Shown: positions 2,194 to 16,423 of the stretch, piece by piece
Position numbering within the stretch: position 1 is the stretch's first letter
Layout of the letters: every line of letters starts with the position of its first letter
DNA from: Neptunicoccus sediminis
GTDB lineage: Bacteria; Pseudomonadota; Alphaproteobacteria; Rhodobacterales; Rhodobacteraceae
Assembly (NCBI RefSeq): GCF_001719615.1
Contig: NZ_MDVX01000011.1
Location: forward strand, 62,001-126,000
DNA length: 64,000 bases
Direction: 5' to 3'
The notes under the pieces: model-generated
The model's database searches: none
What the model saw: only the letters and a program-made list of their open reading frames with translations
What the model was told of the DNA's origin: nothing
Program-made: the position numbers and the translations under genes

Positions 2194-3324
2194 TCAGTTT
2201 GCGGACAGGGCCGTTCGCATTTCGCGGATCGCATCGCCAATGTCATCGCCGTAGCGCAGCAGACTGCCGCCCAGCAGATAGACGCAATCCTCCCCGTAAT
2301 GGGACATCATATCGCCAAGCCGGTCGAGCGACATACCACCCCCCGGACTGGGCAGTATCGCCGGACCGATGTTGGCGGGATCACGACAGGCATCTACAAT
2401 TGCGCTGCATTCCTGCTTGGAAAAGCCGAAGCGTCCGCCGTAGTTGGGAAAGACGGAAACATCCGCCCCTGCCAGTCGCATCAACTGGCCAAAAAGCATC
2501 CCGTGGCTATAGCCGTGATCCGGCGAGAGCACATAGGGTCCAAGGTGGCTTGGATGGGCCATGATCGGCAACCCGAAATCCGCATCCTGCGCCAGACTGT
2601 TTATGGCATCAAAGCCAACCAGCCCCGGAATGAGCAAAACACCCCCCGCGCCTGCATCCTTGGCATAATAAGCCAGATCGCGCAGGTTTTCACCGTGCCC
2701 CCCAATGCTCGCGAAATAGAGCGCGCGGCTGGTGTCGCCCTGATCCGCACGCTCTGCGTTGGCCTGCTTCACCGCTGCAGCACAGGCTTTGGCACGGGTC
2801 TTGAATGGCGCAGCGTCCTGATTGCACAGGCCGTGGTCTTCTTTCACGATGTCCGCACCCGCCACTGCGGTCAGGTAACACAGTCGTGCAAGGGTTTCTG
2901 ATGAACTGCCCTGTGGCTTGATCACCGGACAGACATAGCCCCCTGACTTGCGCCCTGTCAGTGCTCGCAATCCCGCCGCGCCAAATCGGGCGCCGGGAAA
3001 CCGGTCTGTCAGATCGGCGTTTGGGTTCAGGTCGATGGCTTTTACACCGCGCAGGATAGAGGCATTGCCAAGGATCACATTCAGCAGTTGGGGCAATTCG
3101 CGCCCCACCGCATCCACGTGATACCCGATCCGCCCGACCCAGACTCCATTGCCACAGGCCGTGACCGCTTCGACGCGGCCAAGCACAGTATCCTCGACAT
3201 AGCCCGACGGGACCACATCGCGGGGGATTTCAACCGTGTCCTCCAGCGCGATGGCTTCGGCGCGGGCCATCGCATCGGCATCATCCTCTGCAACGATCCG
3301 GTAGGTTACAGAAAACCGGTCCAT
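2194..3324 (-). CDS. RuBisCO-like protein (form IV, RLP)
   Basis: 376 residues, shorter than true RuBisCO large subunits (about 450-480) and in the size range of RLPs. Landmarks by eye: VIKPQG with Lys136 (RuBisCO Lys175); GADIVKEDHG with Lys161 (the lysine carbamylated in RuBisCO) and Asp163, but His164 where RuBisCO has Glu; His257 and His260 (AHPSH); SPGGG at 326-330 and LLGGS at 351-355 for phosphate binding. Loop 6 reads PNYGGRFGFS and lacks the Lys334 needed for CO2 fixation, so it should not be a carboxylase. Known RLPs catalyse enolisation or isomerisation in methylthioribose salvage (Bacillus MtnW, Rhodospirillum rubrum RLP) or act on 3-oxo-isoapionate-4-phosphate in apiose catabolism. 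mtnK and mtnA nearby favour a methylthio- or deoxy-pentulose phosphate, but apionate chemistry is not excluded. It starts one base inside the transketolase stop (TAATG), with a GGAGGG ribosome site. Confidence 0.88.
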   Translation of the reverse strand: MDRFSVTYRIVAEDDADAMARAEAIALEDTVEIPRDVVPSGYVEDTVLGRVEAVTACGNGVWVGRIGYHVDAVGRELPQLLNVILGNASILRGVKAIDLNPNADLTDRFPGARFGAAGLRALTGRKSGGYVCPVIKPQGSSSETLARLCYLTAVAGADIVKEDHGLCNQDAAPFKTRAKACAAAVKQANAERADQGDTSRALYFASIGGHGENLRDLAYYAKDAGAGGVLLIPGLVGFDAINSLAQDADFGLPIMAHPSHLGPYVLSPDHGYSHGMLFGQLMRLAGADVSVFPNYGGRFGFSKQECSAIVDACRDPANIGPAILPSPGGGMSLDRLGDMMSHYGEDCVYLLGGSLLRYGDDIGDAIREMRTALSAN

Positions 3325-4328
3325 TACAGACCCTCCGCCTTGGCCAGAGAGTGTACCGCATCCACACGGGCTTCCGCCAGATCAGTTTCGGTAATGCCGA
3401 GTTTCTGGCCCAACAGATCCTCAACCCCTTGGGTCAGCGCCAGCGCATCCAGCCCGTAATACCGCATAAGATAGGCGCGGCTGCCCCCGTGTGCGTAGGT
3501 GTCTTTCAGACCCAAACGGCGCAGTTTCTTGCCAACACCATTGTCCGCCATGACCTCTGCCACCAATGACCCGATACCCCCTTCGGTAACGTGGTTTTCC
3601 AGCGTGATCACCCCGCCTTTCACCGCGTTGATATGGTCAAGGATCGCTTCGGCGTTGAAAGGTTTGATGGTGTGCAGATGCAGGTGACGCACGGAAACGC
3701 CCGCCGCTTCCAGCGCTTTGGTTGCACGCATGGCTTCTTCGGTGGTGATACCGGCGGTGACGATCAGCACATCGTTTCCAAGACTCAGCTCGCGCATCTC
3801 ACCGACTTTGATCGGCGTGTCGAACAGGCGGGGCATGGAGCCGCGCAGAACGCGGCAATAAACCGGACCGTCAATGCTGTCAGCCGCTTCACAGATGCTC
3901 TCCACCTCGGTCGCATCGCCGGTTTCAAGGATCGTCATGTTCGGCATGGAGCGCATGACCGCAATATCCTCAATCGCCTGATGGGTCATCCCCCCGGGCG
4001 TGGTGATACCGGGCAAAAACCCCATGATCCGCACCTTGCGCCGTGGATAGGCAATCGAGGCCATCAATTGGTCATAGGGACGACGGTAGGTGAAGACCCC
4101 GAAGGTGTGGATGAAGGGACGATACCCCGCAAGACCAAGCCCGCCACAAAAGCTCATCATGTTTTGTTCGGCCATCCCCATCGACAGGAACTGGTCGGGG
4201 TGGTTGTCGCGGAATTTATCAATCTCGCAAGATGATGTCAGATCCGCAGAGATACACAGAACCTCGGGATTGGCGAGTGCGTGTTTTTCAAAAGCCCGCT
4301 CATAGGGGCGGCTTACCATTTCTACCAT
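3324..4328 (-). CDS. Transketolase-like protein, C-terminal (Pyr + C) subunit
   Basis: 334 residues covering the pyrimidine-binding and C-terminal domains of transketolase. The GMAEQNM motif carries Glu54, the glutamate that activates the thiamine pyrophosphate ring in the family. PGGMTHQAIEDIAVMRSMPN is the typical Pyr-domain stretch, and ITLENHVTEGGIGS lies in the C-domain. With the upstream gene it forms a two-subunit transketolase that would transfer a two-carbon unit from a ketose phosphate. Split transketolases occur in specialised sugar pathways, such as apulose-4-phosphate transketolase in apiose catabolism. It has a GGAGCC ribosome site and overlaps the RLP gene, so the two should be made together. 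The donor substrate is unknown. Confidence 0.9.
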   Translation of the reverse strand: MVEMVSRPYERAFEKHALANPEVLCISADLTSSCEIDKFRDNHPDQFLSMGMAEQNMMSFCGGLGLAGYRPFIHTFGVFTYRRPYDQLMASIAYPRRKVRIMGFLPGITTPGGMTHQAIEDIAVMRSMPNMTILETGDATEVESICEAADSIDGPVYCRVLRGSMPRLFDTPIKVGEMRELSLGNDVLIVTAGITTEEAMRATKALEAAGVSVRHLHLHTIKPFNAEAILDHINAVKGGVITLENHVTEGGIGSLVAEVMADNGVGKKLRRLGLKDTYAHGGSRAYLMRYYGLDALALTQGVEDLLGQKLGITETDLAEARVDAVHSLAKAEGL

Positions 4329-4342
4329 TTTAACGGCTCCGG

Positions 4343-5284
4343 TCAGTGGGCGTAGTCGATGGGATCAACACCCAAGGATTCAGCGATTGAGATGTTCATG
4401 CGGGCGCGTTCTTCTTCGGATTTGAAACGCACGTAGTGGAGGCGCGGGAAGCGTTCTTCCAGAATCGGCATGGCGTGGAACGGGTTGGAATTGGCCAGAA
4501 TGATCAGGGGTTTACCATCATGTTTGGTCTTGGCCGCCTCGCGCATGTCGTTCACATTATGGGCGTCTACCTCCACAACAACCGCGCCGAACGTTTCCAT
4601 CTTGGCCTTGATGTCCCCCACTTCCATGACGGAATCCATCGCCCCGTCACATTGCTGGCGGTTCACATCCATGATTGCCTTGACGTTGTCGATCCGGTGG
4701 TGCGCACAGCACTGGATCGCTTCCCATGTCTGGCCTTCCTGCACCTCTCCGTCGGACATATAGACCCAGACGCGGCCCTTTTCGCCCTTGCGTTTGCGCG
4801 CCCAAGCCAGACCTGCGGCAGTGGACAAACCAATGCCAAGCGTGCCGTTATGCACCTCCATGCCGGGGCTGTGCTCTGCGCCGATCATCTCAACGCTGGA
4901 CCCGTCCTTGTTGAACATCTCCAGACCTTCAGCCGCCATACGGCCTGTTTCGATCAACGTCGCATAAGCCACCAGCGCATAATGGGCGGGGGCGATAAAC
5001 AGACGGTCGTATTCCGGTTCAAACGGACCGTTGTAACCGGCCCCTGTGTGATAATCCGGATTGTCCGCATGGGGCACACCGCCGAAAGGTTTCGGGATCA
5101 TCGGCAGGGTCGGCGCCCCAAGGTTCAGCTCCTCGTTATAAAGCCAGGCCAGTTGTTCGGCAGAGGAGCAGGCTTGCGACAGATACCCGCCATTGTTGCG
5201 CATCGCATGTTCAAACACGCGGCGGCGGATTCCAAGGGCGATGTCTTCGGTGGTTCGTTCGTTCTTCACGGCAATATTCCACAT
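4343..5284 (-). CDS. Transketolase-like protein, N-terminal (TPP-binding) subunit
   Basis: 313 residues. The thiamine-pyrophosphate motif is clear: SDGEVQEGQTWEA at about 177-189, followed about 28 residues later by DVNRQQCDG, with Asn208 as likely Mg ligand. Ser replaces the usual first Gly of GDGE. MEVHNGTLGIGLSTAAGLA is the standard preceding segment. A region rich in Pro, Gly and aromatic residues at about 60-90 (PKPFGGVPHADNP and following) is larger than in ordinary transketolases and may shape the substrate site. The ATG at 5284 was chosen. A TTG at 5296 is in frame, but neither has a good ribosome site, and a palindrome lies just upstream. The stop is 14 bases before the partner subunit. 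Confidence 0.88.
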   Translation of the reverse strand: MWNIAVKNERTTEDIALGIRRRVFEHAMRNNGGYLSQACSSAEQLAWLYNEELNLGAPTLPMIPKPFGGVPHADNPDYHTGAGYNGPFEPEYDRLFIAPAHYALVAYATLIETGRMAAEGLEMFNKDGSSVEMIGAEHSPGMEVHNGTLGIGLSTAAGLAWARKRKGEKGRVWVYMSDGEVQEGQTWEAIQCCAHHRIDNVKAIMDVNRQQCDGAMDSVMEVGDIKAKMETFGAVVVEVDAHNVNDMREAAKTKHDGKPLIILANSNPFHAMPILEERFPRLHYVRFKSEEERARMNISIAESLGVDPIDYAH

Positions 5285-5544
5285 TGGCCGGCGCAAGCGC
5301 CGACAGGTTGAAGGGGACCGGCAGGTCGGTGTTGGGGCGCAATGCTCGGTGGGATCACCACCGCTTTACGCAGAAAAGTCAGGCAGTGGGGCGCATCTCG
5401 GAGCATTTCGCAACAGCGCAAACACGGGCGGGTCGCTGGAAAATGACGGGCGCGGCAGTCTGGGCAAGGCAGATACCCTCGGGGCGTTGGAACTGTAAAT
5501 GGGGTGTCCGGCCCGCCACGTCAGCAGGCCGGACAGGGATCGGT
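5285..5544. other. Intercistronic gap with start-proximal palindrome
   Basis: This 260-base gap separates the binding-protein gene from the transketolase genes although all point left. Besides the hairpin at 5505-5535 it holds a perfect palindrome, CGGCGCAAGCGCCG, at 5289-5302, immediately upstream of the transketolase start and able to fold over its ribosome-binding region. I see no convincing gene. The short open frames here have no recognisable product. An internal promoter or a small RNA is possible but not demonstrable from sequence. Confidence 0.4.
5505..5535 (-). terminator. Hairpin just downstream of the sugar-binding-protein gene
   Basis: A perfect 9-bp stem, TGTCCGGCC with GGCCGGACA, encloses a 13-base loop and lies 9 bases past the stop of the binding-protein gene on the minus strand. 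No T-run follows. It is likely to attenuate transcription or protect the upstream mRNA, leaving more binding protein than transketolase. Confidence 0.55.
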
Positions 5545-6585
5545 TTAGCGTTTGGGCAATGGCATCCAGTCGGCCATCGCAACATCTGCATGCTGGAATT
5601 GTGGCATCTTGGCGCCCAGTTCTTCCATGTTGCTGACGTCCTGTTCGTTCAGGAAATCCTGCGTGATCAGGGTCGGTGGAACCACTACGGATTTACCGGG
5701 ATTTTCGCCTGTCAGCTGAAGCGCCAATGTGCGCACCGAAACCTCGCCCACAACAGACGGGTTGGTAGCAACGGTCGCGACCCAAGCGGAATCCGGTTCC
5801 CGCATGGCGGAAATATCAGCGGTAGAGACATCGGCAGAATAGATTTTGATGTCCTGTGTCAGTCCGGCCTCATCCACCGCGATTTTCACCCCTTTGGCAA
5901 ATTCGTCAAACGGCGCAAACATCACGTTGATGGTCGGGTTGGCCTGCAAAATGGAGCGGGCTTGGTTGGCAACCGCATTGGCAATCGGATTGTCGAGCGT
6001 GCCGAACACAGCCGCTTCCTTGATGCCCGGATTTGCCTGTTTCACTTCTTCCCACGCCACATCGCGTCGGTCCAGCGGCGCGATGCCCGGAACATAGACA
6101 TAGCCGGCAGTGAATTCGGTGCCGTTATCCGCAATCGCCTGATCCAGAGCCAGTTTACCCAGCAGATAGTCAGACTGTTCAATCTGCGGAATAGCCTCGT
6201 TTTCCACATCCACGTCGAAGGCAACGACTTTGATGCCCGCGTCCACTGCCCGCTGTGCAGCTTCTTTCATGGATTCAGTCAGACCGTGCTGGATGATGAT
6301 CCCGTCCACGCCAAGCGCGATAGCCTGATCCACCATATCCGCCTGCAACGCCGCATCCTGACGGCTGTCAAACACCCGCAGGTCCATGCCAATCGCTGCG
6401 GCTTGGGTCTCCACGCCGGACAGATAGGACTGGAAAAAGTCACCTGTCGAGAGGTAACGCACCAGCGCGATTTTAACGTCCTCGGGTTTGTCCAGAGGTG
6501 CGGGCATCTGCGCAAGCGCGGCGCTGCCCAGACCAGTCGCAAGGGCTGCCAGCCCGGCGAATTTGATAAAATGACGTCTCAACAT
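5545..6585 (-). CDS. Sugar ABC transporter periplasmic binding protein (ribose/AI-2 type)
   Basis: 346 residues. A Sec/Tat-like signal peptide (MLRRHFIKFAGLAALATGLGS, ending near ALAQ at about residue 25) is followed by a Peripla_BP_4 fold: VKIALVRYL, DMVDQAIALGVDGIIIQHG, GIKVVAFDVDV and a C-terminal NPSVVGEVSVRTLALQL. It should capture a monosaccharide or modified pentose and deliver it to the permease encoded upstream. Start is supported by GGGAGG six bases upstream of the ATG. Gene order ATPase, permease, binding protein, transketolase, RLP on one strand ties uptake to the metabolic genes. Ligand unknown; methylthioribose, 5-deoxyribose or a branched pentose are candidates by context. Confidence 0.93.
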   Translation of the reverse strand: MLRRHFIKFAGLAALATGLGSAALAQMPAPLDKPEDVKIALVRYLSTGDFFQSYLSGVETQAAAIGMDLRVFDSRQDAALQADMVDQAIALGVDGIIIQHGLTESMKEAAQRAVDAGIKVVAFDVDVENEAIPQIEQSDYLLGKLALDQAIADNGTEFTAGYVYVPGIAPLDRRDVAWEEVKQANPGIKEAAVFGTLDNPIANAVANQARSILQANPTINVMFAPFDEFAKGVKIAVDEAGLTQDIKIYSADVSTADISAMREPDSAWVATVATNPSVVGEVSVRTLALQLTGENPGKSVVVPPTLITQDFLNEQDVSNMEELGAKMPQFQHADVAMADWMPLPKR

Positions 6586-6608
6586 GATTTTTTCCTCCCA
6601 TCAGTTGA

Positions 6609-7625
6609 TCAGGTTTTCCCACCGGCGCCCCGCTTGGCGCTAAGGTAGAAGGTAAATACAAGCGCAATCACCAGAACCGCGCCTTTCACGAAATCTTGGG
6701 TGTAATAGGGTGCGTTCATCATGGTCAGCCCTTGCAAAAGGATGCCGACAAACAACGCGCCAACCGCTGTGCCAAAGGCATTAGGGCGGGCCGCGCCAAG
6801 CACGGCAAAGCCGATCAATGCCGCCGCCACACTGTCCAGCAACAGGTTGTTTCCGCTGGCAATATCACCGCGCCCCAGACGCGCCGCCAACAGGATGCCC
6901 CCGATAGAGGCGGTCACGCCAGAGATCATATAGGCCGCAATTTTGTAGCGGTTCACATTTGCACCGACCAAGGCCGCCGCCCGCTCGTTCGAGCCAATCG
7001 CATACATCAGACGCCCGTGACGGGTCAGTTCCAGAAACACCCAAATTGCAAAAGCGGTGATCAGGAAAATGACGACCGGAACCGGAACCAGACGCTCTAC
7101 CACCAGATCAAAGCGGTGCCGCCCGAGCCACAGGAACGCCTGCGAAAACGCGCCTTCCGCTACGCTGCCGTCGGGCAGCTTCATGCCGGTCGCGATGGAA
7201 TTGCCCTGTGTCGGGATACGTTGCAGGCCGATCAGCAGAAACATCATCCCCAAGGTGGCCAGCAGGTCGGGCACCTTGAACTTCACGATCAGCAGACCGT
7301 TGATCAACCCCACCACAGCGCCCATCAAAAGGCACAACATCACAGCGGAAAAGGCCGACATTTCAAGGATCACCATCGCATAAGCCGAGAGCATCAGCGA
7401 CGTTGTTGCCACCGATCCGATCGACAGGTCAAACCCGTCCACCACCAGCGTACAGGTCACGCCAAGCGCCAGAATCCCCGTGATCGCTACCGACTGCAGG
7501 ATGAAGGCCGCTGATCGGGGAGAGGCAAATCCGCTGGCAGACAGGCTGAAATACAGCACCAGCCCCATCAACAGGATCAAAAAGCCGAAGCGGATCGCAA
7601 AGTTCAGGATTTTCTCGTTGGTCAT
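6609..7625 (-). CDS. Sugar ABC transporter permease (RbsC type)
   Basis: 338 residues with about 8-10 membrane segments. Family-typical stretches are ILALGVTCTLVVDGFDLSIGSVATTS (residues about 51-76), the cytoplasmic ATPase-coupling region TRHGRLMYAIGSNERAAALVGANV, and GILLAARLGRGDIASGNNLLLDSVAAALIG near the C-terminus, as in ribose-type BPD_transp_2 permeases. Two copies would form the channel. The gene starts two bases after the ATPase stop, indicating one transcript and coupled translation. Confidence 0.93.
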   Translation of the reverse strand: MTNEKILNFAIRFGFLILLMGLVLYFSLSASGFASPRSAAFILQSVAITGILALGVTCTLVVDGFDLSIGSVATTSLMLSAYAMVILEMSAFSAVMLCLLMGAVVGLINGLLIVKFKVPDLLATLGMMFLLIGLQRIPTQGNSIATGMKLPDGSVAEGAFSQAFLWLGRHRFDLVVERLVPVPVVIFLITAFAIWVFLELTRHGRLMYAIGSNERAAALVGANVNRYKIAAYMISGVTASIGGILLAARLGRGDIASGNNLLLDSVAAALIGFAVLGAARPNAFGTAVGALFVGILLQGLTMMNAPYYTQDFVKGAVLVIALVFTFYLSAKRGAGGKT

Positions 7626-7627
7626 AA

Positions 7628-9136
7628 TCAGTTCGCCTGTATTCGGGCGTCTTTGGCCCCTGAGACCTGGGCAATCAGCACGTCCAGATCAATATTGGAA
7701 TTGGAATGGGTGCCAACCACAGCCCCTTCGTGAAGGACGATGATGCGGTCCGCAATTTCGAGGGCTTCGTCCAGCTCGGCTGCGAACACCAGTGTGGCGC
7801 GGCCCTTGGCGGTGGCGCGGATGTGGCGGCCGATGTCGCGGCGTGCGCCGATGTCTACACCCTGAAACGGTTCATCCAGCAACAACACGCGGCTGTCTTC
7901 CAGCAGCCAGCGGCCGATCATCACCTTTTGCTGGTTGCCCCCCGACAGGGTGCCGATGCCGTCATAATCGGACTGGCATTTGACTCCGATCTGCCGGATC
8001 ATATCATTCGCCGCCCCGCGCTGTTTGCGTTTGCTCAGCAGGGACAAGCGGCTGAAACTGCCCAGAAACGGCAGCGTCATGTTATTGGCGATGTCAAAGG
8101 CGGGGATCACGGCGTTGGTGCTGCGATCCTTGGAGGACATAAACACCCCTGCGGCCACCGCATGGGTGGCGGATCGGGGCGCATAGGGCCGCCCGTCAAG
8201 CCGCAACTGGCCCGATTTGACAGGTCTCTGCCCGAAAATCATATCTGCAAGCTGGCTTTTCCCACTGCCGAGCAGTCCGGTAATGGCGACCACCTCGCCG
8301 TCATGGGCGGTAAAGCTGACCGGTGTATCGCCACCGTCAAGCCGCACCTGATCCACCTCAAGGATGGCAGGACCGCCGGAGACAACGTCAATATCCACAT
8401 CGGTCATCTTATGGCCAAGCATCGCCGTCACTGCGCCATCATAATCCAGCGGCGCCTGATCGAAAACGCCGGAAATCCGACCGTCCCGCATACAAACGAT
8501 CCGGTCGGCAATGCGGCGTATATCGGACATGCGGTGGGAAATATAAAGAATCGCCACACCCTGATCCCGCAGCCTGTCCAGAAGCGCGAACAGGCGGTCG
8601 GCCTCGGATGCAGAGAGGGATGACGTCGGCTCGTCCAGAATAAGGACTTTCGGCTCATAGGCCATTGCGCGGGCAATGGCGATCATCTGGCGGTCGGCTA
8701 CGGACAGATCCGCCACCCGCGCCCGCACATCCAGATCAAGCCCCATATTGTCTGCCACTTTACGTGCCGCGACCCGCAGCGCACGGTCACGCACCAACAG
8801 CCCGGCCCCCTGCTCTGTCAGCCGGTTCAACATCAGGTTTGTCGCTACGTCCAGATCGGGAATCACCCCGTCATCAATGGACTGGTGCACCGTCACAACC
8901 CCGCGCGAAATCGCATCCGCCGCATCCAACGGCTGGAACGGTTGGCCCTCAAGCTGTATCGAGCCTCCATTGGCCCCCTGAAACCCGCAAAGTATCTTAA
9001 CCAGCGTAGATTTCCCCGCGCCATTGGCCCCCATCAAAACAACAACTTCGCCCGCAGACAGGTCCAGATCGATTCCGCGCAATACGTGATTGCGACCGAA
9101 AGATTTCTCCAGACCTCTGATTTCACAGGCTTTCAT
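7628..9136 (-). CDS. Sugar ABC transporter ATP-binding protein (RbsA type, two ATPase domains)
   Basis: 502 residues with two ABC domains, as in ribose/autoinducer-2-type importers. The first Walker A is GANGAGKST at about 36-44, with Walker B VLILDEPTSSL and a degenerate signature LSVADRQ. The second domain has GLLGSGKSQ at about 287-295, signature LSGGNQQK, and Walker B LLLDEPFQGVDIGAR. Degeneration of one site is common in this subfamily. ATG at 9136 was chosen because the conserved sequence begins at once (MKACEIRGLEKSFG) and GAAGAG lies just upstream; the frame runs on to 9205 without conserved residues. First gene of the leftward operon, facing mtnK. Confidence 0.93.
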   Translation of the reverse strand: MKACEIRGLEKSFGRNHVLRGIDLDLSAGEVVVLMGANGAGKSTLVKILCGFQGANGGSIQLEGQPFQPLDAADAISRGVVTVHQSIDDGVIPDLDVATNLMLNRLTEQGAGLLVRDRALRVAARKVADNMGLDLDVRARVADLSVADRQMIAIARAMAYEPKVLILDEPTSSLSASEADRLFALLDRLRDQGVAILYISHRMSDIRRIADRIVCMRDGRISGVFDQAPLDYDGAVTAMLGHKMTDVDIDVVSGGPAILEVDQVRLDGGDTPVSFTAHDGEVVAITGLLGSGKSQLADMIFGQRPVKSGQLRLDGRPYAPRSATHAVAAGVFMSSKDRSTNAVIPAFDIANNMTLPFLGSFSRLSLLSKRKQRGAANDMIRQIGVKCQSDYDGIGTLSGGNQQKVMIGRWLLEDSRVLLLDEPFQGVDIGARRDIGRHIRATAKGRATLVFAAELDEALEIADRIIVLHEGAVVGTHSNSNIDLDVLIAQVSGAKDARIQAN

Positions 9137-9284
9137 ACACTCTTCCCAGATCTCGTTCCCTAGCCGCCACCGGATGGCGTGTTCCTTCGATAGTAACCAT
9201 TTCAACAGTTGTCAAACCATTTGTCTATTGACTAGAAAGCGCACCGCCGCGATAAACATCTCATCAAAAACGGGAGACTGCGGG
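9137..9284. promoter_or_regulatory. Divergent control region between ABC-importer and mtnK operons
   Basis: This 148-base gap must hold promoters for both operons. It contains a palindrome CAACAGTTG at 9203-9211 and two TTGTC copies 11 bases apart, starting about 9210 and 9221, in an A+T-rich stretch. These are reasonable candidates for binding by the SorC-type regulator encoded in the rightward operon. The assignment is inference from position only. Confidence 0.45.
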
Positions 9285-10541
9285 ATGGAGTACGCGAATT
9301 ATGAGGCCCTGACGCCAGAGACACTTTCTACACGGTTGGGCAGCCTGCCGGCGGTGACGAAACACCTTGGAACCGACCCATCGGGCTGGCAGGTCAGGGA
9401 AGTCGGTGACGGAAATCTGAACCTTGTGTTTATTGTGCAAAGCGATCAGGGCAGCGTTATTGTCAAACAGGCCCTTCCTTATGTGCGCCTTGTGGGGGAC
9501 AGTTGGCCGATGCCGCTGTACCGCGCCTTTTACGAATATCACGCCCTGACCCGTCAGGCCGCCCGTGATCCTGGAACCGTGCCGGAAATTTATTATTTTG
9601 ACGCGGATCAGGCGCTGATCGTGATGGAGTTTCTTTCCCCCCATGTGATCCTGCGCAACAAGCTGATTGCCGGTGAAAAAGTCAAAGGACTGGGGGCGTT
9701 CTGCGGCAAATTCTGTGCACGCACGGCGTTTCGCGGTTCTGAACTCTCCCTGAAATCCGCTGACAAAAAGGCCGATGTGGGGCTGTTCTCGGGCAATGTG
9801 GAAATTCCTGCGATCACCGAAGGATTGGTCTTTACCGATCCCTATTTTGAGGCGGAGCTGAACAATCACACACCGGGACTGGAACCGGTGATAAATGAGC
9901 TGCGCAACAATATCGAGCTAAAGCAGATCGCCCAGCAGATGCTGACTAAATTTGCCTCTAACACGCAGACAATGGTGCATGGTGATTTGCACTCCGGTTC
10001 GATCATGGCCACCGACAGCGAAATCCGCGTCATTGATCCCGAATTTGCACAATATGCGCCGATGGGTTTTGATATTGGGATGCTGACCGCCAATTACCTG
10101 ATGGCCTTTTTCAGCCAGCCCGCCCATCGGGGCAGTGATCTTGACAGCTATCAGGACTGGATACTCTCGGTCATCACGGACTGCTGGGCCAGTTTCGAGG
10201 CAGAGTTCCGCAGCCTGTGGGACAGCGAAAGAACCGGTATGCTTTACCCTAAAACGCTGTTTGAGGATCAGGGCCACAGTTCGGGCGCTGCCTGTGACGG
10301 GGTTCTGGCGGAAATCTGGCGCGATGCGCTGCGGTTCTGCGGCATAGAAATGCACCGCCGCTGCCTGTCGCTGGCCCATAATGCGGACTTTGAGACCATC
10401 GAAGACACCGCCGTTCGCGCCCCTCTGGAGGCGCGGAACCTGCAAATGGGCGCGGAACTGGTGCTCAAATCCGATACACTGAAAGATGCCAAAGCGCTGG
10501 TAGCGCTGGCACGGACTTATAACGCAAGGAACATCCTATGA
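9285..10541 (+). CDS. mtnK: S-methyl-5-thioribose kinase
   Basis: 418 residues with the MtnK version of the aminoglycoside-phosphotransferase/choline-kinase fold. Visible: nucleotide loop EVGDGNLNLVF (39-49), Lys61 in VKQALPYVR, catalytic loop VHGDLHSGSI (231-240), and metal-binding DPEFAQYAPMGFDIG (251-265). These closely match the known MtnK pattern. The enzyme phosphorylates the C1 hydroxyl of 5-methylthioribose with ATP and in some bacteria also 5-deoxyribose. ATG at 9285 was chosen because CGGGAGA precedes it; the frame stays open upstream but without conserved residues. It overlaps mtnA by four bases (ATGA). No MTA phosphorylase or nucleosidase gene is nearby, so a free pentose is the expected substrate. 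Confidence 0.93.
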   Translation: MEYANYEALTPETLSTRLGSLPAVTKHLGTDPSGWQVREVGDGNLNLVFIVQSDQGSVIVKQALPYVRLVGDSWPMPLYRAFYEYHALTRQAARDPGTVPEIYYFDADQALIVMEFLSPHVILRNKLIAGEKVKGLGAFCGKFCARTAFRGSELSLKSADKKADVGLFSGNVEIPAITEGLVFTDPYFEAELNNHTPGLEPVINELRNNIELKQIAQQMLTKFASNTQTMVHGDLHSGSIMATDSEIRVIDPEFAQYAPMGFDIGMLTANYLMAFFSQPAHRGSDLDSYQDWILSVITDCWASFEAEFRSLWDSERTGMLYPKTLFEDQGHSSGAACDGVLAEIWRDALRFCGIEMHRRCLSLAHNADFETIEDTAVRAPLEARNLQMGAELVLKSDTLKDAKALVALARTYNARNIL

Positions 10542-11635
10542 AAGTAAACGGCACCCATTACCGCTCTTTGTGGTGGAATGCACAGGATGACGTGTTGGAA
10601 ATCATCGACCAGCGCTCCCTGCCTTACGAATTTATCACCCAGCAAGTGAAGACGTTGGAAGATTTTGAAGACGCAATCGTGGAAATGCGCGTGCGCGGGG
10701 CGCCGCTGATCGGGGCGACAGCCGCTTATGGCATGGCGCTCGCACTTAGGCTGGACCCCTCCGATGCCCATATGGATGCAGCATGGGAGCGGTTGAACGA
10801 GACCCGCCCAACAGCAATCAACCTCCGCTGGGCCTTGAACCGGTGCCGCGAGGCAATGCGACCGCTGCCCGAAGCAGACCGCGCCGCAGCCGCCCTGAAA
10901 CTGGCCCATGACATTGCGGATGAAGACGTGGAAATCTGCCGCCAGATCGGGGAGCACGGATTGAAACTGATCAAAGAGATCGCAGCGAAAAAACCGGCGG
11001 GCGAACCTGTCCGGCTGCTGACCCATTGTAATGCGGGCTGGATTGCGACCGTGGATTGGGGCACCGCCACCAGCCCGATGTACCACGCCCATGACGCAGG
11101 AATCCCGCTGCATGTATGGGTCGATGAAACCCGTCCGCGCAACCAGGGGGCATTGACCTCTTGGGAATTGGGCAGCCACGGTGTACCACATACCTATGTG
11201 ACAGATAACGCCGGAGGCCATTTGATGCAGCACGGACAGGTCGATATGGTGATCGTCGGCACCGACCGCACCACGCGGCGCGGTGATGTCTGCAACAAGA
11301 TCGGCACCTATCTAAAGGCGCTCGCGGCCCATGATAATGGTGTGCCTTTCTATGTGGCCCTGCCCTCCCCTACGATTGACTGGACGGTGGATGACGGCGT
11401 TGCCGAAATCCCGATCGAGGAACGCAGCCCCCGTGAGACCACCCACATCCAAGGGACAATGGAAGACGGTTCTATCGGTGTGGTTCAGGTCACACCAGAC
11501 GGCACACCGGGGGGCAACCCTGCCTTTGATGTGACACCGAACCGTTTGGTCACAGGTCTGATCACCGAACGGGGCATATGCGAAGCGACACCCGAGGGTC
11601 TTGCCGCACTCTTCCCCGAAATGGCAGGCGCATAA
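10538..11635 (+). CDS. mtnA: S-methyl-5-thioribose-1-phosphate isomerase
   Basis: 365 residues, full length for MtnA. RVRGAPLIGATAAYG (51-65) binds the substrate phosphate. THCNAG has Cys164 and VIVGTDR has Asp243, the catalytic pair of the family (Cys160/Asp240 in Bacillus numbering). PRNQGALTSWEL and GDVCNKIGTY are further hallmarks that separate it from eIF2B. It converts the aldose-1-phosphate made by MtnK into the ketose 5-methylthioribulose-1-phosphate, or the 5-deoxy analogue. The ATGA overlap with mtnK and the regulator two bases downstream show one operon. Confidence 0.95.
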   Translation: MKVNGTHYRSLWWNAQDDVLEIIDQRSLPYEFITQQVKTLEDFEDAIVEMRVRGAPLIGATAAYGMALALRLDPSDAHMDAAWERLNETRPTAINLRWALNRCREAMRPLPEADRAAAALKLAHDIADEDVEICRQIGEHGLKLIKEIAAKKPAGEPVRLLTHCNAGWIATVDWGTATSPMYHAHDAGIPLHVWVDETRPRNQGALTSWELGSHGVPHTYVTDNAGGHLMQHGQVDMVIVGTDRTTRRGDVCNKIGTYLKALAAHDNGVPFYVALPSPTIDWTVDDGVAEIPIEERSPRETTHIQGTMEDGSIGVVQVTPDGTPGGNPAFDVTPNRLVTGLITERGICEATPEGLAALFPEMAGA

Positions 11636-11637
11636 GC

Positions 11638-12633
11638 GTGGCGCCGGCCTCTGCCTCCTCTGCGCGTCCGGGCGTTGATGCAGCCGGACGCGGGTCGCGG
11701 CAGGACGATCTTATCATCGAAACCGCATGGCTTTATTTTCACGACGGGTTGAACCAGAATGAAATCGCCAAGCGGCTCGATGTCAGCCGCGCCTCTGTCG
11801 TGAACTATCTGGCAGAGGCCCGACGGCGCGATTACGTGCGCATCACGCTGGACAGCGACGTGTTTCGCAACAACCGATTGGCGTCCGAGTTGCGGGCGAA
11901 ATTCGGTCTGGTGGATGTGCTTGTTGTGCCCGAAGACGGAAGCTCTGCGCAGCGCACGGCAGAACGGGTGATCCGCGCCGCATCGGACTGGCTGCCCCAT
12001 CTTCTGGAACCGGGGGACCATCTGGGTATTGCCTGGGGGGAAACCATTTACCGGCTGGCGCAGATCGCACCCAAGCTGATAATGGAGGATCTGACAATCG
12101 TGCAACTGTTGGGGTCCAAACCGTCCGACATCGGTTTCGCCGCAGAAAATTGCGCGGCAACACTGGCGCAGCGGTTCGGGGCCTATTGTGCCAACCTGCA
12201 TGTGCCCCTGATGCTGTCCACACCGCAGCTTTGTGACAGCCTCAAGGCGGAACCGATGGTGGCGGCGCAGTTGCAGATGGTAGCGGATTGTAAAAAGGTC
12301 ATCTTTGCGGCCGGAACAACCGATCCGGACAGCCATATCGCCATGACCGGCCTGCTGGACGCCCCGACCCTGTCGCAAATGCGCAAGGACGGTGCGGCCG
12401 CTGTCATTTGTGGCCGTGTGATTGATGTTGAGGGCACCCCGATGCCCGCCCCGAATGAGGACCGTTTGATCGGTGTCACGCTGGAGCAGATGCGCAACAA
12501 GGAGATGGGCATTCTGGTCTCCGCAGGGCTGGACCGCGTAGATGCCGCCGCCGCCGCAATTCGCGGCGATTACGTGACCCATTTCATCACATGCTCGGCC
12601 TCTGCCGAGAAACTACTGGACGACACACCATGA
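11638..12633 (+). CDS. SorC/DeoR-type sugar-binding transcriptional regulator
   Basis: 331 residues from the GTG at 11638, two bases after the mtnA stop. The frame also extends back to 11578 inside mtnA, but that part has no family similarity. An N-terminal helix-turn-helix (LNQNEIAKRLDVSRASVVNYLAEARR, about 38-63) is followed by a sugar-phosphate-sensing domain with GDHLGIAWGETIYRL and VKKVIFAAGTTD-like strands typical of SorC regulators. It probably senses a phosphorylated intermediate such as the ketose-1-phosphate and controls both divergent operons (inference). It overlaps the aldolase start by four bases. Confidence 0.9.
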   Translation: MAPASASSARPGVDAAGRGSRQDDLIIETAWLYFHDGLNQNEIAKRLDVSRASVVNYLAEARRRDYVRITLDSDVFRNNRLASELRAKFGLVDVLVVPEDGSSAQRTAERVIRAASDWLPHLLEPGDHLGIAWGETIYRLAQIAPKLIMEDLTIVQLLGSKPSDIGFAAENCAATLAQRFGAYCANLHVPLMLSTPQLCDSLKAEPMVAAQLQMVADCKKVIFAAGTTDPDSHIAMTGLLDAPTLSQMRKDGAAAVICGRVIDVEGTPMPAPNEDRLIGVTLEQMRNKEMGILVSAGLDRVDAAAAAIRGDYVTHFITCSASAEKLLDDTP

Positions 12634-13289
12634 CCCCCGCCAAAGACACCGCCCTGCGCCAGAGCATCATCGACGGATGTTTATGGATGAAGAACAGCGG
12701 TCTGAACCAAGGCACCTCTGGCAATATTTCCGTGCGATACAAGGACGGGATGCTGATCACCCCGTCCGGTGTCCCCTACGAAAAGTTGCGGCCCGACATG
12801 CTCTGCGCCATGCCGTTGGAGGGTGAACCGGATCTATCGGGCGACATCCGCCCGTCAACCGAATGGCGCTTTCACCAGTCGATCCTGCGCAGCAAGCCGG
12901 ATGTGACGGCGGTGGTGCATGCCCATCCGGTCCATGCCACAGCAATCGCCGTGCAACGCCGCGCGATTCCGGCCTGCCACTATATGATCGCCGCTTTTGG
13001 CGGTAATAGCGTGCCACTGGTGGATTACGCGTTGTTTGGCAGTGACGATCTGGCCCGTATGGTTGCCAAGGCAATGGCAGAGCGGACCGCATGTCTGATG
13101 GCCAATCACGGCGCGGTGGTGGCGGGGGAAACCCTTGACCGCGCACTCTGGCGGATGGAAGAACTGGACAACCTGGCGCGGGTCTATCTGTTGGCGCTGT
13201 CAACCGGAACGCCCGAAATCCTGACCGATCCCCAGATGCAAGAGGTTGTCGCCGCCTTTGGCAATTATGGCCCTAAAGACATGGATTAA
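12630..13289 (+). CDS. Class II aldolase, Ald2-like (probable 5-methylthioribulose-/5-deoxyribulose-1-phosphate aldolase)
   Basis: 219 residues of the AraD/FucA fold. Zn ligands His98, His100 (VHAHP) and His160 (MANHG) and the catalytic Glu78 (PSTEWRFH) are all present, with the phosphate-binding TSGNIS (29-34) and TPSG (44-47). FucA-type aldolases split a ketose-1-phosphate into DHAP and an aldehyde. After mtnK and mtnA this matches the DHAP shunt, giving DHAP plus methylthioacetaldehyde from methylthioribose or acetaldehyde from 5-deoxyribose. The alternative MtnB dehydratase is related, but the usual MtnC/MtnD partners are absent here. ATG overlaps the regulator stop (ATGA). Confidence 0.88.
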   Translation: MTPAKDTALRQSIIDGCLWMKNSGLNQGTSGNISVRYKDGMLITPSGVPYEKLRPDMLCAMPLEGEPDLSGDIRPSTEWRFHQSILRSKPDVTAVVHAHPVHATAIAVQRRAIPACHYMIAAFGGNSVPLVDYALFGSDDLARMVAKAMAERTACLMANHGAVVAGETLDRALWRMEELDNLARVYLLALSTGTPEILTDPQMQEVVAAFGNYGPKDMD

Positions 13290-13576: not shown

Positions 13577-14587
13577 ATGAAAAAACTGATCCAAACGCTC
13601 GCACTCGGTGTGACGGCCCTCGGGACATCCCTGTCGGGTGTCAGCGCGGAAGAATGGCGGTTTAACAATTTTCTGCCTGAAACCCGTCCTGAAACAGCCG
13701 AGATCGAACAGTTTGTCAAAGACGTGAATGCTGCGGTTGACGGCGACTTTGAACTGAAACTCTACAGCGGCGGGTCCCTTGGCCTGCCCAACACCGACAC
13801 GCTGCGCTTCCTTCCTAAAGGCGCAGTAGAGATGAGCCTGATGTGGGCGAACTATCTGGGCCGCGATGCACCCGCGCTGAGTTCGGTTGTCGTGCAGGGC
13901 ACCATCGGGTCCATCGACGAGTTTGAAAAAGCCATTCCCGCGGTTCAGGAAATCTATGAAGAGGAATTTGCTGACTGGGATGTAACCTCTGTCGGGTATG
14001 TGGCGATTCCGATGCTGTCTGTGTCCGTATTCTGCCGCGATGAACCCGTACGCACTATCGAAGACCTGAAGTCCAAGAAACTGCGCGTCTGGGCGCGGGA
14101 TCAGGTGGAAACCTTCACCCGTCTTGGCGTTGCAGCACAGATCATTCCACAAGAAGAAATGTATGTGGCGATGAAAACCGGCGTTGTGGATTGTGCGCTA
14201 TATCCCGCACTTTATGCCCACACCGTTTCCCTGCAAGAAGTGGCCAGCCATGCGTCTTTCCTTTATCCGATGGCATCCGGTCCTTACGTGATCGGTGTGG
14301 CCACCGACCGTTGGGAAAAAACAGACGAGAACATCAAATCCGCCATCACCACTGCGGCTGATGATCTGTGGAACCGTACAAACCAGTACGAAGATGATCA
14401 GGCCCGCGAAATGGAAGCCCGTGAAAAACTGGCCGAGCAAGGCGTGACATGGGCCGAGGATTTCTCTGATGCGGACCGCGAGTTGTTTGTCTCCTCTGTG
14501 ACCGAAACATGGGCGATGCTGGCAGAGGAAGCCGGTGGCAATGCCCCCGCCTACCGCGAGCGTGTTCTTAAAGCTTTGGGTCGTTAA
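13577..14587 (+). CDS. TRAP transporter periplasmic binding protein (DctP family)
   Basis: 336 residues with a signal peptide (MKKLIQTLALGVTALGTSLSG, cleavage near VSAEE at about 24-26). The mature part follows the DctP pattern: DGDFELKLYSGGSLGLPNTDTLR, then SKKLRVWARDQVETFTRLGVA with the family's conserved Arg (about 171) that binds the substrate carboxylate, then MKTGVVDCALYPALYA. It should bind an organic acid in the periplasm. Start supported by AGGAGGAACTACA before ATG. The permease genes follow 10 bases later. Confidence 0.92.
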   Translation: MKKLIQTLALGVTALGTSLSGVSAEEWRFNNFLPETRPETAEIEQFVKDVNAAVDGDFELKLYSGGSLGLPNTDTLRFLPKGAVEMSLMWANYLGRDAPALSSVVVQGTIGSIDEFEKAIPAVQEIYEEEFADWDVTSVGYVAIPMLSVSVFCRDEPVRTIEDLKSKKLRVWARDQVETFTRLGVAAQIIPQEEMYVAMKTGVVDCALYPALYAHTVSLQEVASHASFLYPMASGPYVIGVATDRWEKTDENIKSAITTAADDLWNRTNQYEDDQAREMEAREKLAEQGVTWAEDFSDADRELFVSSVTETWAMLAEEAGGNAPAYRERVLKALGR

Positions 14588-14597
14588 GTCGGATCTG

Positions 14598-15131
14598 ATG
14601 CAGAAGATCAAACACATCATTGCGCAAGGGCTGAACGGTTTGGCCCTTGCCTGTGCAGTTGCGGCGGCACTTGGGATGGTGTCCATTGTGGGCATCATCA
14701 TGTATTCCGTGCTGATGCGCAAATTTGCCAATGCGCCGGTTCACATCACCGAAGAGGTGGTCGGACTGTTGCTGAGCGTTTCGCTGTTTCTGGGTCTGCC
14801 TATGGTCACGCTGAACGCCAAACACGTGCGGGTTGCGCTGCTGGCGGACCGTCTGAAAGGGTCCCTGCAGACCGTCATTCAGATCGCGGCCCTGCTGGTT
14901 GGCATCCTGTTTTTTTCATGGCTGATCTACGAGACAATCCCCTGGTTTGAATTTGCCTACAAACGCAGTCTGAAAACCGAAACCTCGCGGATTTTGCTGT
15001 ACCCGTGGATGGCGCTGATGCCGCTGTCCCTGTTCCTGACGCTGGTCATTTTCGTGGCGCGGTTGTTTGGAGTGATCGACCGGATACCTCAATCCGACCC
15101 TGACCAAACCCTTAGCGGATCCGCACACTGA
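14598..15131 (+). CDS. TRAP transporter small permease (DctQ family)
   Basis: 177 residues with four hydrophobic segments (about 10-35, 50-70, 85-105, 130-155), the DctQ layout. VLMRKFANAPVHITEEVVGLL matches the conserved region after the first membrane segment, and LNAKHVRVALLADRL the loop before the third. ATG at 14598 was chosen; the frame extends upstream into the binding-protein gene without hydrophobic character. It overlaps the large permease by one base (TGATG). Confidence 0.9.
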   Translation: MQKIKHIIAQGLNGLALACAVAAALGMVSIVGIIMYSVLMRKFANAPVHITEEVVGLLLSVSLFLGLPMVTLNAKHVRVALLADRLKGSLQTVIQIAALLVGILFFSWLIYETIPWFEFAYKRSLKTETSRILLYPWMALMPLSLFLTLVIFVARLFGVIDRIPQSDPDQTLSGSAH

Positions 15132-16423
15132 TGTCTTTCTGGCTTACCTTGATCGGCGGTCTTCTGGCCACCGCCAGCACCGGCGTGGCTTTGGGCGTTG
15201 CCCTTGGCCTGACCGGTCTGACCATCCTGCACTTCTTTTCCAATGGCGCAACGTCGCTTGCGATTGATGCAATCTGGAATGTATTCAACTCTTTCACGCT
15301 TAGTGCTGTGCCGATGTTCATCCTTCTGGGGGAAATCCTGCTGCGCAGCGGCATCAGCCAGAAAGCCTATGCCGCGTTTTCGCCCCTGTTCCGCAGGGTT
15401 CCGGGCGGACTTTTGCACACAAACATCGCCGTCTGCACCCTGTTTGGCGCAGTCAGCGGGTCGAGCCTGTCGACCGCTGCCTCTGTCGGGCTGGTCGCCT
15501 ATCCGGAGATGACGAAACGGGGTTACGACAAAGACACCATCACCGGCAGTCTGGCGGGTGGTGGCACCCTTGGCCTGTTGATCCCGCCAAGCCTGTCATT
15601 CCTGATTTACGGGGCGCTGACCGAAACCTCGATCGGACGTCTGTTCGCGGCGGGGATTATTCCCGGACTGCTCGCCGGATTGCTGTTCATGGCCTATCTG
15701 CTGGTCAAAAGCATCCGCAATCCCCATATCGCGCCCCGCGATGACACCCCTGTGGGCTTTTGGCTGGCGCTGCGCGGTTTCCGTCAGATCTGGCCGCTGC
15801 TGGCGCTGATCTTTGCGGTGATCGGCAGCATCGTTGCAGGGCTTGCCACCCCCACCGAAGCTGCCGGTGTGGGGGTTGTCCTTGCGGTGATCATATCGTC
15901 CATTTGGGGCGAACTGACCTTCCGGAAACTGGTTGAGGCGGTCTACCAATCCGTACTGTTGTTCACCTCGGTCGGGTTTCTGGTGCTTGGTGCCACGATC
16001 CTTGCCCAATCGGTCAGCGTGTTGGGCATCCCCCAGCAAATCCTGTCCACCGTGGCGGACAGCGGGCTTGGCACCTATAGCGTGCTGCTGATCGTCGTGC
16101 TGGTGTATCTCGTGCTCGGCTGTTTCTTTGACGGCTTGTCGCTGATGATCATGACCCTGCCGGTGGTGTTTCCGCTGCTGACGGGCCTTGGTTTTGATGC
16201 GATCTGGATTGGCGTTATGATTACCATCGTGATTGAAATCGGCCAGATCACCCCGCCGGTGGGATTGAATCTTTCGGTGCTCAGCGCACTAACAAACGGG
16301 CAGGTCAGTCTTGGCCGCGTGGCCATTGCCACCATACCTTATTGGGTGATCCACCTGTTTATGATCTTCATCCTGACCCTGTTTCCCGCGATCGCGCTCT
16401 TCCTTCCTGACCTGTTATTCTAG
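15131..16423 (+). CDS. TRAP transporter large permease (DctM family)
   Basis: 430 residues, about 12 membrane segments. Diagnostic repeats are FGAVSGSSLSTAASVGLV followed by GGGTLGLLIPPSLSFLIYG, and IVIEIGQITPPVGLNLSVLS near the C-terminus. It completes the three-part transporter with the two genes upstream. Organic acid substrate unknown. An OsmC-like gene and a P450 follow closely on the same strand. Confidence 0.95.
   Translation: MSFWLTLIGGLLATASTGVALGVALGLTGLTILHFFSNGATSLAIDAIWNVFNSFTLSAVPMFILLGEILLRSGISQKAYAAFSPLFRRVPGGLLHTNIAVCTLFGAVSGSSLSTAASVGLVAYPEMTKRGYDKDTITGSLAGGGTLGLLIPPSLSFLIYGALTETSIGRLFAAGIIPGLLAGLLFMAYLLVKSIRNPHIAPRDDTPVGFWLALRGFRQIWPLLALIFAVIGSIVAGLATPTEAAGVGVVLAVIISSIWGELTFRKLVEAVYQSVLLFTSVGFLVLGATILAQSVSVLGIPQQILSTVADSGLGTYSVLLIVVLVYLVLGCFFDGLSLMIMTLPVVFPLLTGLGFDAIWIGVMITIVIEIGQITPPVGLNLSVLSALTNGQVSLGRVAIATIPYWVIHLFMIFILTLFPAIALFLPDLLF

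Follow-up and report, generated by a model that had tools for sequence, protein, structure and literature searches.

Methylthioadenosine (MTA) and methylthioribose (MTR) are waste products of the use of S-adenosylmethionine, and salvaging them gives rise to methanethiol. In Rhodopseudomonas palustris, the RuBisCO-like protein (RLP) known as RLP1 has been measured to be a 5-methylthioribulose-1-phosphate (MTRu-1-P) 1,3-isomerase whose product accumulates when the cupin gene is deleted, as the available text of that study describes (PMC5893883). In Escherichia coli, the genes of another route, the dihydroxyacetone phosphate (DHAP) shunt, are reported to be repressed by a DeoR-family protein (available part of PMC12632272). 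Here, we analyzed a 64,000-nucleotide stretch of Neptunicoccus sediminis DNA (contig NZ_MDVX01000011.1, positions 62,001 to 126,000; the window), in which positions 2194 to 13289 carry the gene families of a DHAP shunt together with an RLP, a split transketolase (TK), and a sugar importer. We propose, with a probability of roughly 0.55, that this locus serves the uptake and breakdown of a 5-modified ribose, most likely MTR, via MTR-1-phosphate (MTR-1-P), MTRu-1-P, and 1-methylthioxylulose-5-phosphate, which would then be cleaved by the TK. It appears to be a branch of RLP-based methionine salvage with a conserved gene set. We found no description of it, and no literature joining RLP, TK, and methylthio sugars, in a search whose coverage excluded most subscription papers; two papers retrieved for such terms (PMC8307300 and PMC7580956) used them in unrelated senses.

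Results

Ten open reading frames (ORFs) in two divergent sets occupy the locus. The minus-strand set runs from the ATPase, permease, and binding protein of the importer to the N-terminal (TKN) and C-terminal (TKC) halves of the split TK and the RLP, and the plus-strand set runs from MtnK and MtnA to a Sugar-bind regulator and a class II aldolase. All ten ORFs, which the earlier note had read as a MtnK-MtnA-aldolase set joined to an RLP, a split TK, and an importer, were confirmed, and their families were assigned with NCBIfam and Pfam models. MtnK (S-methyl-5-thioribose kinase family; 9285 to 10541, plus strand) scored 459.1 bits on TIGR01767 against a cut-off of 275, and MtnA (5-methylthioribose-1-phosphate isomerase family; 10538 to 11635, plus strand) scored 427.8 bits on TIGR00512 against 279. 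The RLP (2194 to 3324, minus strand) reached 46.6 bits against 30.1 on Pfam RuBisCO_large. TKC (3324 to 4328, minus strand) has the domains Transket_pyr and Transketolase_C, and TKN (4343 to 5284, minus strand, with the ORF open to 5296) has Transketolase_N. The TKC and RLP genes overlap by 1 base and the MtnK and MtnA genes by 4 bases. Likely starts were taken from a codon-score gene finder for TKN (5284), the ATPase (9136), MtnK (9285), the regulator (11638, uncertain), and the aldolase (12630).

A search for the same set in other genomes, which the earlier note had proposed as a check, found it conserved. A scan of genome contigs gave 54 loci, and the order-wide sample comprised 390 genomes; the two sets may overlap in species. 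In 53 of the 54 loci, the gene immediately preceding the RLP encodes a TKC relative, with a gap of at most 25 bases in 52 of these 53 and of 69 bases in the remaining one (L062, from a metagenome-assembled genome [MAG]). TKN is present in 50 loci; the contig ends before TKN in L034, L054, and L061, and the fourth locus, L027, has neither TK half between the binding protein and the RLP. Across the order, an RLP was found at an E value of ≤1e-20 in 31 of the 390 genomes (25 at ≥50% identity and 6 at 27 to 30%) and a TKC at ≥71% identity in 30 (the next best being 44%). Judged from the coordinates, each of the 25 close RLPs has such a TKC next to it. The gene set is conserved as a unit, and the association is not due to chance. 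As a side observation, the retained RLP and missing TK halves of L027 (3653 to 4159) lie on a MAG contig.

The sugar-phosphate genes that accompany this core vary. MtnK and MtnA occur together in 36 of the 54 loci; in six, MtnK is missing and MtnA is accompanied by a purine-nucleoside phosphorylase and a deaminase-like amidohydrolase; two have MtnA alone; and in ten, the stretch retrieved shows none of these sets. Contig ends truncate several of the ten, and L065, which is uncut, extends about 5.8 kb before and about 6.5 kb after its TK-RLP genes, with TKN and TKC fused as one ORF. In L074, a single ORF encodes MtnA (residues 3 to 333, 425.5 bits) and then TKN (from about residue 436), and its neighbors are TKC, the RLP, a DeoR-type regulator, a nucleoside transporter, and a purine-nucleoside phosphorylase. 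Of the individual observations that tie the transketolase to the MtnA route, this MtnA-TKN fusion is the strongest. Two further observations concern individual loci. Directly after the RLP, L033 (11147 to 13489, with a homologue in L032) encodes a 780-amino-acid protein of the pyruvate-dehydrogenase-E1/transketolase type, a second thiamine diphosphate (ThDP) enzyme in the cluster. The record of L026 bears the name Enemella evansiae (Actinomycetota), but its RLP and TK are sister to those of L025 (Nitratireductor); horizontal transfer, a contaminant, or mislabeling could account for this.

The aldolase stood in the composite gene set of the earlier note, and this holds at the locus itself but not in the shared core. 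The FucA-like class II aldolase (12630 to 13289, plus strand) matches Aldolase_II, so that MtnK and MtnA (both over cut-off) and a class II aldolase are found together here as in a DHAP shunt, for which it is a candidate exit. It scores below the cut-offs of its own FucA-like model (231.4 against 264 bits) and of MtnB (69.6 against 137). Among the 54 loci, some of which are cut by contig ends, the class II form occurs in 5 and a bifunctional aldolase/SDR in 29, and neither form was seen in the six phosphorylase-type loci. The aldolase is therefore outside the shared core and optional among relatives.

We then placed the RLP in a tree of 82 rows, rooted at the midpoint and with long branches to the enolase and OiaX-like rows. 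All rows carrying the TK-linked label, 62 in number and including the TK-less L027, formed one group (support 93/57, 94% of bootstraps). Its sister was a set (support 100/98) made up of 3qfw and 14 RLPs found in other class genomes; 3qfw is the best PDB match of the window RLP and is probably R. palustris RLP1. The enolase and OiaX-like rows were placed apart from the TK-linked and cupin-linked RLPs. Of 385 class genomes, 18 had a match and the 14 came from these, the other four being the genome studied here, the TK-type G202 and G344, and the OiaX-like G036. A cupin gene adjoins the RLP in 13 of the 14, and the contig of the fourteenth ends at that point. The TK-linked and cupin-linked RLPs have a common motif, K-x-D-H / HP / N..GGRF. 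In the TK-linked rows, K-x-D-H is present in all 62, at a place where the enolase and OiaX-like rows end in E; GGRF is also present in all 62, the preceding N in 60, and HP in 61 with one gap. The cupin-group RLPs match this motif except for one A in GGRF. By tree and motif, the RLP of this clade is predicted to be an MTRu-1-P 1,3-isomerase. No specific RLP model was passed by the window protein, which scored 50.3 against 700 bits on OiaX. The 2,3-diketo-5-methylthiopentyl-1-phosphate enolase MtnW was rejected, since the two MtnW models gave 170.4 against 409 and 128.6 against 513.6 bits and the metal motif reads KEDH instead of KDDE.

The cupin query matched none of the 32 TK-type genomes (25 with the RLP in the order, 2 in the class, and 5 RLP-less), while the control search matched 13 of 15 genomes, missing the genome of the cut contig and the OiaX-like one. 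No cupin was found in the genome studied here (best E value, 0.33), and none was seen in the 54 loci. In the genomes examined, RLP with cupin and RLP with TK are mutually exclusive, and the simplest reading of this exclusion is that the TK takes over the product of the RLP.

The N. sediminis genome also encodes one ordinary full-length transketolase and, on another contig, an MTA phosphorylase (298.6 against 274.85 bits). A search of the genome for an MTA/S-adenosylhomocysteine nucleosidase found none, and MtnA was found only within the window, so that endogenous MTA, if salvaged via MtnA, passes through this locus. The earlier note's statement that no phosphorylase or nucleosidase is present thus holds at the locus and fails, for the phosphorylase, in the genome. 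Its proposal of a free pentose from outside is consistent with the importer, but outside uptake is not the only source, because the phosphorylase can feed the same sole MtnA. Acireductone dioxygenase (MtnD, PF03079) was not found in the genome by a search whose control matched 5 of 14 known genomes, and the universal methionine salvage pathway was rejected.

Next, we examined the TK residues. Both halves have as their best PDB match the split transketolase of Carboxydothermus hydrogenoformans (6yaj for TKC and 6yak for TKN). We used E. coli numbering and residue roles that we take to be catalytic or ThDP/Mg binding for H66, D155, E411, and H473 and donor binding for H26, H100, H461, and D469. 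The ThDP/Mg and catalytic residues of a transketolase are present: the H66, D155, H261, S385, E411, H473, and R520 columns are conserved across 49 RLP-linked and 5 RLP-less TK rows, and the N185 and R358 columns are not. In the same rows, the donor-binding H26, H100, H461, and D469 are replaced by Y, M, F, and G, with one gap at H26 among the RLP-linked rows and an L at the H100 column in L074. Judged from the alignment, these changes say that the donor is probably unusual. They do not say which donor, because other split TKs have related changes: Y and M at H26 and H100 in L115 and L116, and Y and A in L105. For the same reason, we rejected the changes as proof of a donor without a C1 hydroxyl. 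The L115 and L116 enzymes (9293 to 11088 and 9222 to 11035, respectively) are more distant split TKs beside L-threonate/D-erythronate dehydrogenase genes.

A link to sulfur came from the neighbors of the TK genes. In L026, the order is phosphorylase, amidohydrolase, MtnA, S-oxide reductase, TKN, TKC, and RLP, with the reductase gene overlapping its neighbors by four bases at each end; in L025, its sister in the tree, the tail of the same reductase gene precedes TKN at the contig edge. An S-oxide reductase also lies near all five RLP-less TKs (TIGR00509 was the best model in L100, L101, L103, and L104, which were scanned, and L102 was assigned by similarity). These TKs are near-identical to RLP-linked TKs and nest among them in a quick tree. 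Beside them are a zinc-type dehydrogenase (scanned in L100, L101, L103, and L104) and an FGGY kinase, for which a xylulokinase model was best in L101 and L104 and similarity served elsewhere. A class II aldolase-family gene is present in three of the five loci, closest to L-ribulose-5-phosphate 4-epimerases in the scanned L101 and L104. The S-oxide reductase and the xylulokinase-like kinase point to sulfur-bearing ketose phosphates. One such product, 1-methylthioxylulose-5-phosphate, would be reachable both from MTRu-1-P via the RLP and via a xylulokinase-like enzyme, and this convergence favors methylthio over 5-deoxy sugars.

The RLP-less clusters L100 to L104 themselves look like a pathway for another, perhaps S-oxidized, sugar, and L101 also has genes for an SsuA-like binding protein and a sulfatase-modifying-factor-like protein. 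At a contig edge in L028 (1 to 1072), a gene of the similarity cluster of these FGGY kinases lies upstream of an RLP-linked TK. One MetY-like gene, which was recognized by eye in L033 and has homologues in L115 and L042, was considered as a linked methanethiol-using enzyme but was too rare to use.

The remaining genes of the locus are those of uptake and regulation. The importer consists of a periplasmic sugar-binding protein (Peripla_BP_4; 5545 to 6585), a permease (BPD_transp_2; 6609 to 7625), and an AraG/RbsA-like ATPase (ABC_tran; 7628 to 9136), all on the minus strand, and the SorC/DeoR-type sugar-binding regulator (Pfam Sugar-bind) lies at 11638 to 12633 on the plus strand. Between the MtnK and ATPase genes, 32 of 33 regions contained the palindrome TGTCAA-N5/6-TTGACA with no more than 2 mismatches (21 exact and 28 within 1), against a mean of 0.4 and a maximum of 2 in single-base shuffles; the single miss was L049, in which the called genes leave no gap. 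The window copy, the degenerate TGTCAAACCATTTGTCT at 9210 to 9226 in the divergent promoter region, has 2 mismatches from TGTCAA-N5-TTGACA. At one mismatch, further copies of the motif precede the aldolase/SDR and regulator genes (seven loci), TKN (L047, L057, and L064), and the L026 phosphorylase operon; 11 of 60 matches at this threshold are inside genes, and among TK promoters the motif is nondivergent only in the sister loci L047 and L057. It may be the operator of the regulator or two back-to-back -35 boxes. Because its halves equal what we take to be the -35 consensus and most sites lie in divergent promoters, we do not claim a proven SorC operator. Rfam and tRNA scans of the window gave no matches. 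Genes judged by eye to be TRAP-type-transporter-like lie on either side of the locus (313 to 1614 and 13577 to 16423), and relatives of the left one and of the gene next to it adjoin the locus in L019 and L030.

Discussion

In the pathway that we favor, the importer would bring in MTR and MtnK would form MTR-1-P from it; the MTA phosphorylase of the genome could also form MTR-1-P from endogenous MTA. MtnA would convert MTR-1-P to MTRu-1-P, and the RLP would shift the carbonyl by 1,3-isomerization to give 1-methylthio-D-xylulose-5-phosphate, like the measured enzymes of its sister group. The split TK, standing where the MTA-isoprenoid shunt has the cupin methylsulfurylase, would cleave this ketose between C2 and C3 to glyceraldehyde-3-phosphate and a CH3S-CH2-CO unit on ThDP. 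That C2 thioether unit could end as methanethiol plus an acetyl unit, as methylthioacetaldehyde, or by transfer to an aldose, and the aldolase would be a side exit from MTRu-1-P. The modified-pentose route of the earlier note, which joined MtnK and MtnA to an RLP isomerase and a split TK, is strengthened by the conservation, the fusion, the RLP tree and motif, and the cupin searches; its substrate and TK reaction are ones that we infer. More tentatively, and with odds well short of even, the split TK could be a methanethiol-eliminating ketolase, in which ThDP-bound CH3S-CH2-C(OH)= would expel methanethiol to leave acetyl-ThDP, released as acetate or acetyl phosphate. Phosphoketolase and sulfoacetaldehyde acetyltransferase follow a comparable elimination-to-acetyl logic.

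Several points weigh against the MTR pathway. We know of no activity for this RLP clade or this TK, and the aldolase already provides an exit from MTRu-1-P. In the tree, the TK-linked RLP clade is moderately supported, and the altered donor residues do not single out this route. The TK occurs without the RLP in 5 of 30 genomes (G401, G425, G429, G637, and G726) and the RLP once without the TK (L027). The S-oxide reductases of the RLP-less clusters score 766 to 873 bits on TIGR00509, below its cut-off of 1017.55, and the kinases and deaminases are also below curated cut-offs. Finally, the nucleoside-type loci carry purine-nucleoside phosphorylases rather than MTA phosphorylases (50.7 against 274.85 bits on the MTAP model in L033 and 62.8 in L074).

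Some of this evidence would fit 5-deoxyribose from 5'-deoxyadenosine, from which the RLP would directly make 1-deoxyxylulose-5-phosphate and the TK glyceraldehyde-3-phosphate and an acetyl or acetaldehyde unit. MtnK, MtnA, and class II aldolase sets use 5-deoxyribose in Bacillus thuringiensis and E. coli, as far as the available parts of PMC6079011 and PMC12632272 describe, and the amidohydrolase encoded in phosphorylase-type loci matches the 5'-deoxyadenosine deaminase model, although below its cut-off of 522 (280.0 bits in L032 and 281.7 in L031). We nevertheless regard this substrate as unlikely, since TK-linked S-oxide reductase genes would make no sense for a sulfur-free sugar and 1-deoxyxylulose-5-phosphate could enter isoprenoids directly, with no need of a TK. 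Plain ribulose-1-phosphate from ribose or nucleosides, isomerized to xylulose-5-phosphate for a split TK that is simply an extra ordinary transketolase, would suit the ribose-type importer and the purine-nucleoside phosphorylases of phosphorylase-type loci and L074. This is quite improbable, however, given that MtnK passes the MTR kinase model, that the genome already has an ordinary transketolase and needs no other, that the canonical TK donor residues are replaced, and that the sister RLPs act on a methylthio sugar (available text of PMC5893883).

It is also conceivable, if distinctly unlikely, that the RLP and TK are not consecutive, with the TK acting on a ketose-1-phosphate directly or with a 5-modified ribose as acceptor and the RLP product going to isoprenoids or another fate. 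The available part of PMC8102628 suggests a transketolase-type cleavage of 5-deoxyribulose-1-phosphate in Methanocaldococcus and names 5-deoxyribose as a transketolase acceptor in Synechococcus, and TK and RLP can each stand alone. The tight RLP-TKC adjacency argues for consecutive steps instead, as does the xylulokinase-like kinase beside RLP-less TKs, which is expected for a ketose-5-phosphate donor. The apiose route that the earlier note had held to be the main alternative would make the RLP an OiaX-type decarboxylase and the TK an apulose-4-phosphate transketolase. A split transketolase reportedly belongs to an apiose pathway, and the TK residue changes are compatible with a branched donor; RLPs act in apiose pathways as well (available part of PMC6302742). 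We reject this route for the RLP, which has a low OiaX score, lies in another clade, and lacks the OiaX motif. OiaK, which adjoins an OiaX-like RLP in L106, is not among the ten genes here, and MtnK and MtnA have no known role in apiose catabolism, all of which makes this explanation hardly credible.

If the MTR pathway is correct, the product of isomerase-type RLPs has one more destination, the split TK uses a donor, or even catalyzes a reaction, that is new for a transketolase, and 25 of the 390 sampled genomes of the order contain this sulfur-salvage route. An eliminating ketolase would further mean full carbon-and-sulfur catabolism of methylthioribose, with a RuBisCO relative feeding central metabolism and with no dioxygenase or cupin.

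Among known systems, the D-apiose pathway (OiaX and OiaK) likewise uses an RLP in sugar breakdown and differs in RLP clade, motif, and partner genes. The TK steps on 5-deoxyribose compounds in Methanocaldococcus and Synechococcus also apply a transketolase to products of 5-deoxyadenosine; as described in the available part of PMC8102628, they proceed without an RLP and use the ketose-1-phosphate or free sugar directly. The split transketolase of C. hydrogenoformans has the same two-subunit layout, with HAGLTVGEDGASHQ where the window TKC has LPGITT-PGGMTHQ. The DHAP shunt (MtnK, MtnA, and Ald2, or DrdK-I-A) is like this locus in its MtnK, MtnA, class II aldolase, transporter, and Sugar-bind regulator, whereas here an RLP and a split TK are added and the aldolase is optional among relatives. 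With the MTA-isoprenoid shunt of Rhodospirillum rubrum and R. palustris (a DeepYkr RLP plus the cupin methylsulfurylase), the locus has in common an MtnA-type isomerase, a sister-group RLP with the same motif, and the same expected intermediate (available text of PMC5893883 and PMC4958253). Because the cupin was looked for and not found, we do not class the locus as a member of that shunt, from which it differs in having a split transketolase in the cupin's place.

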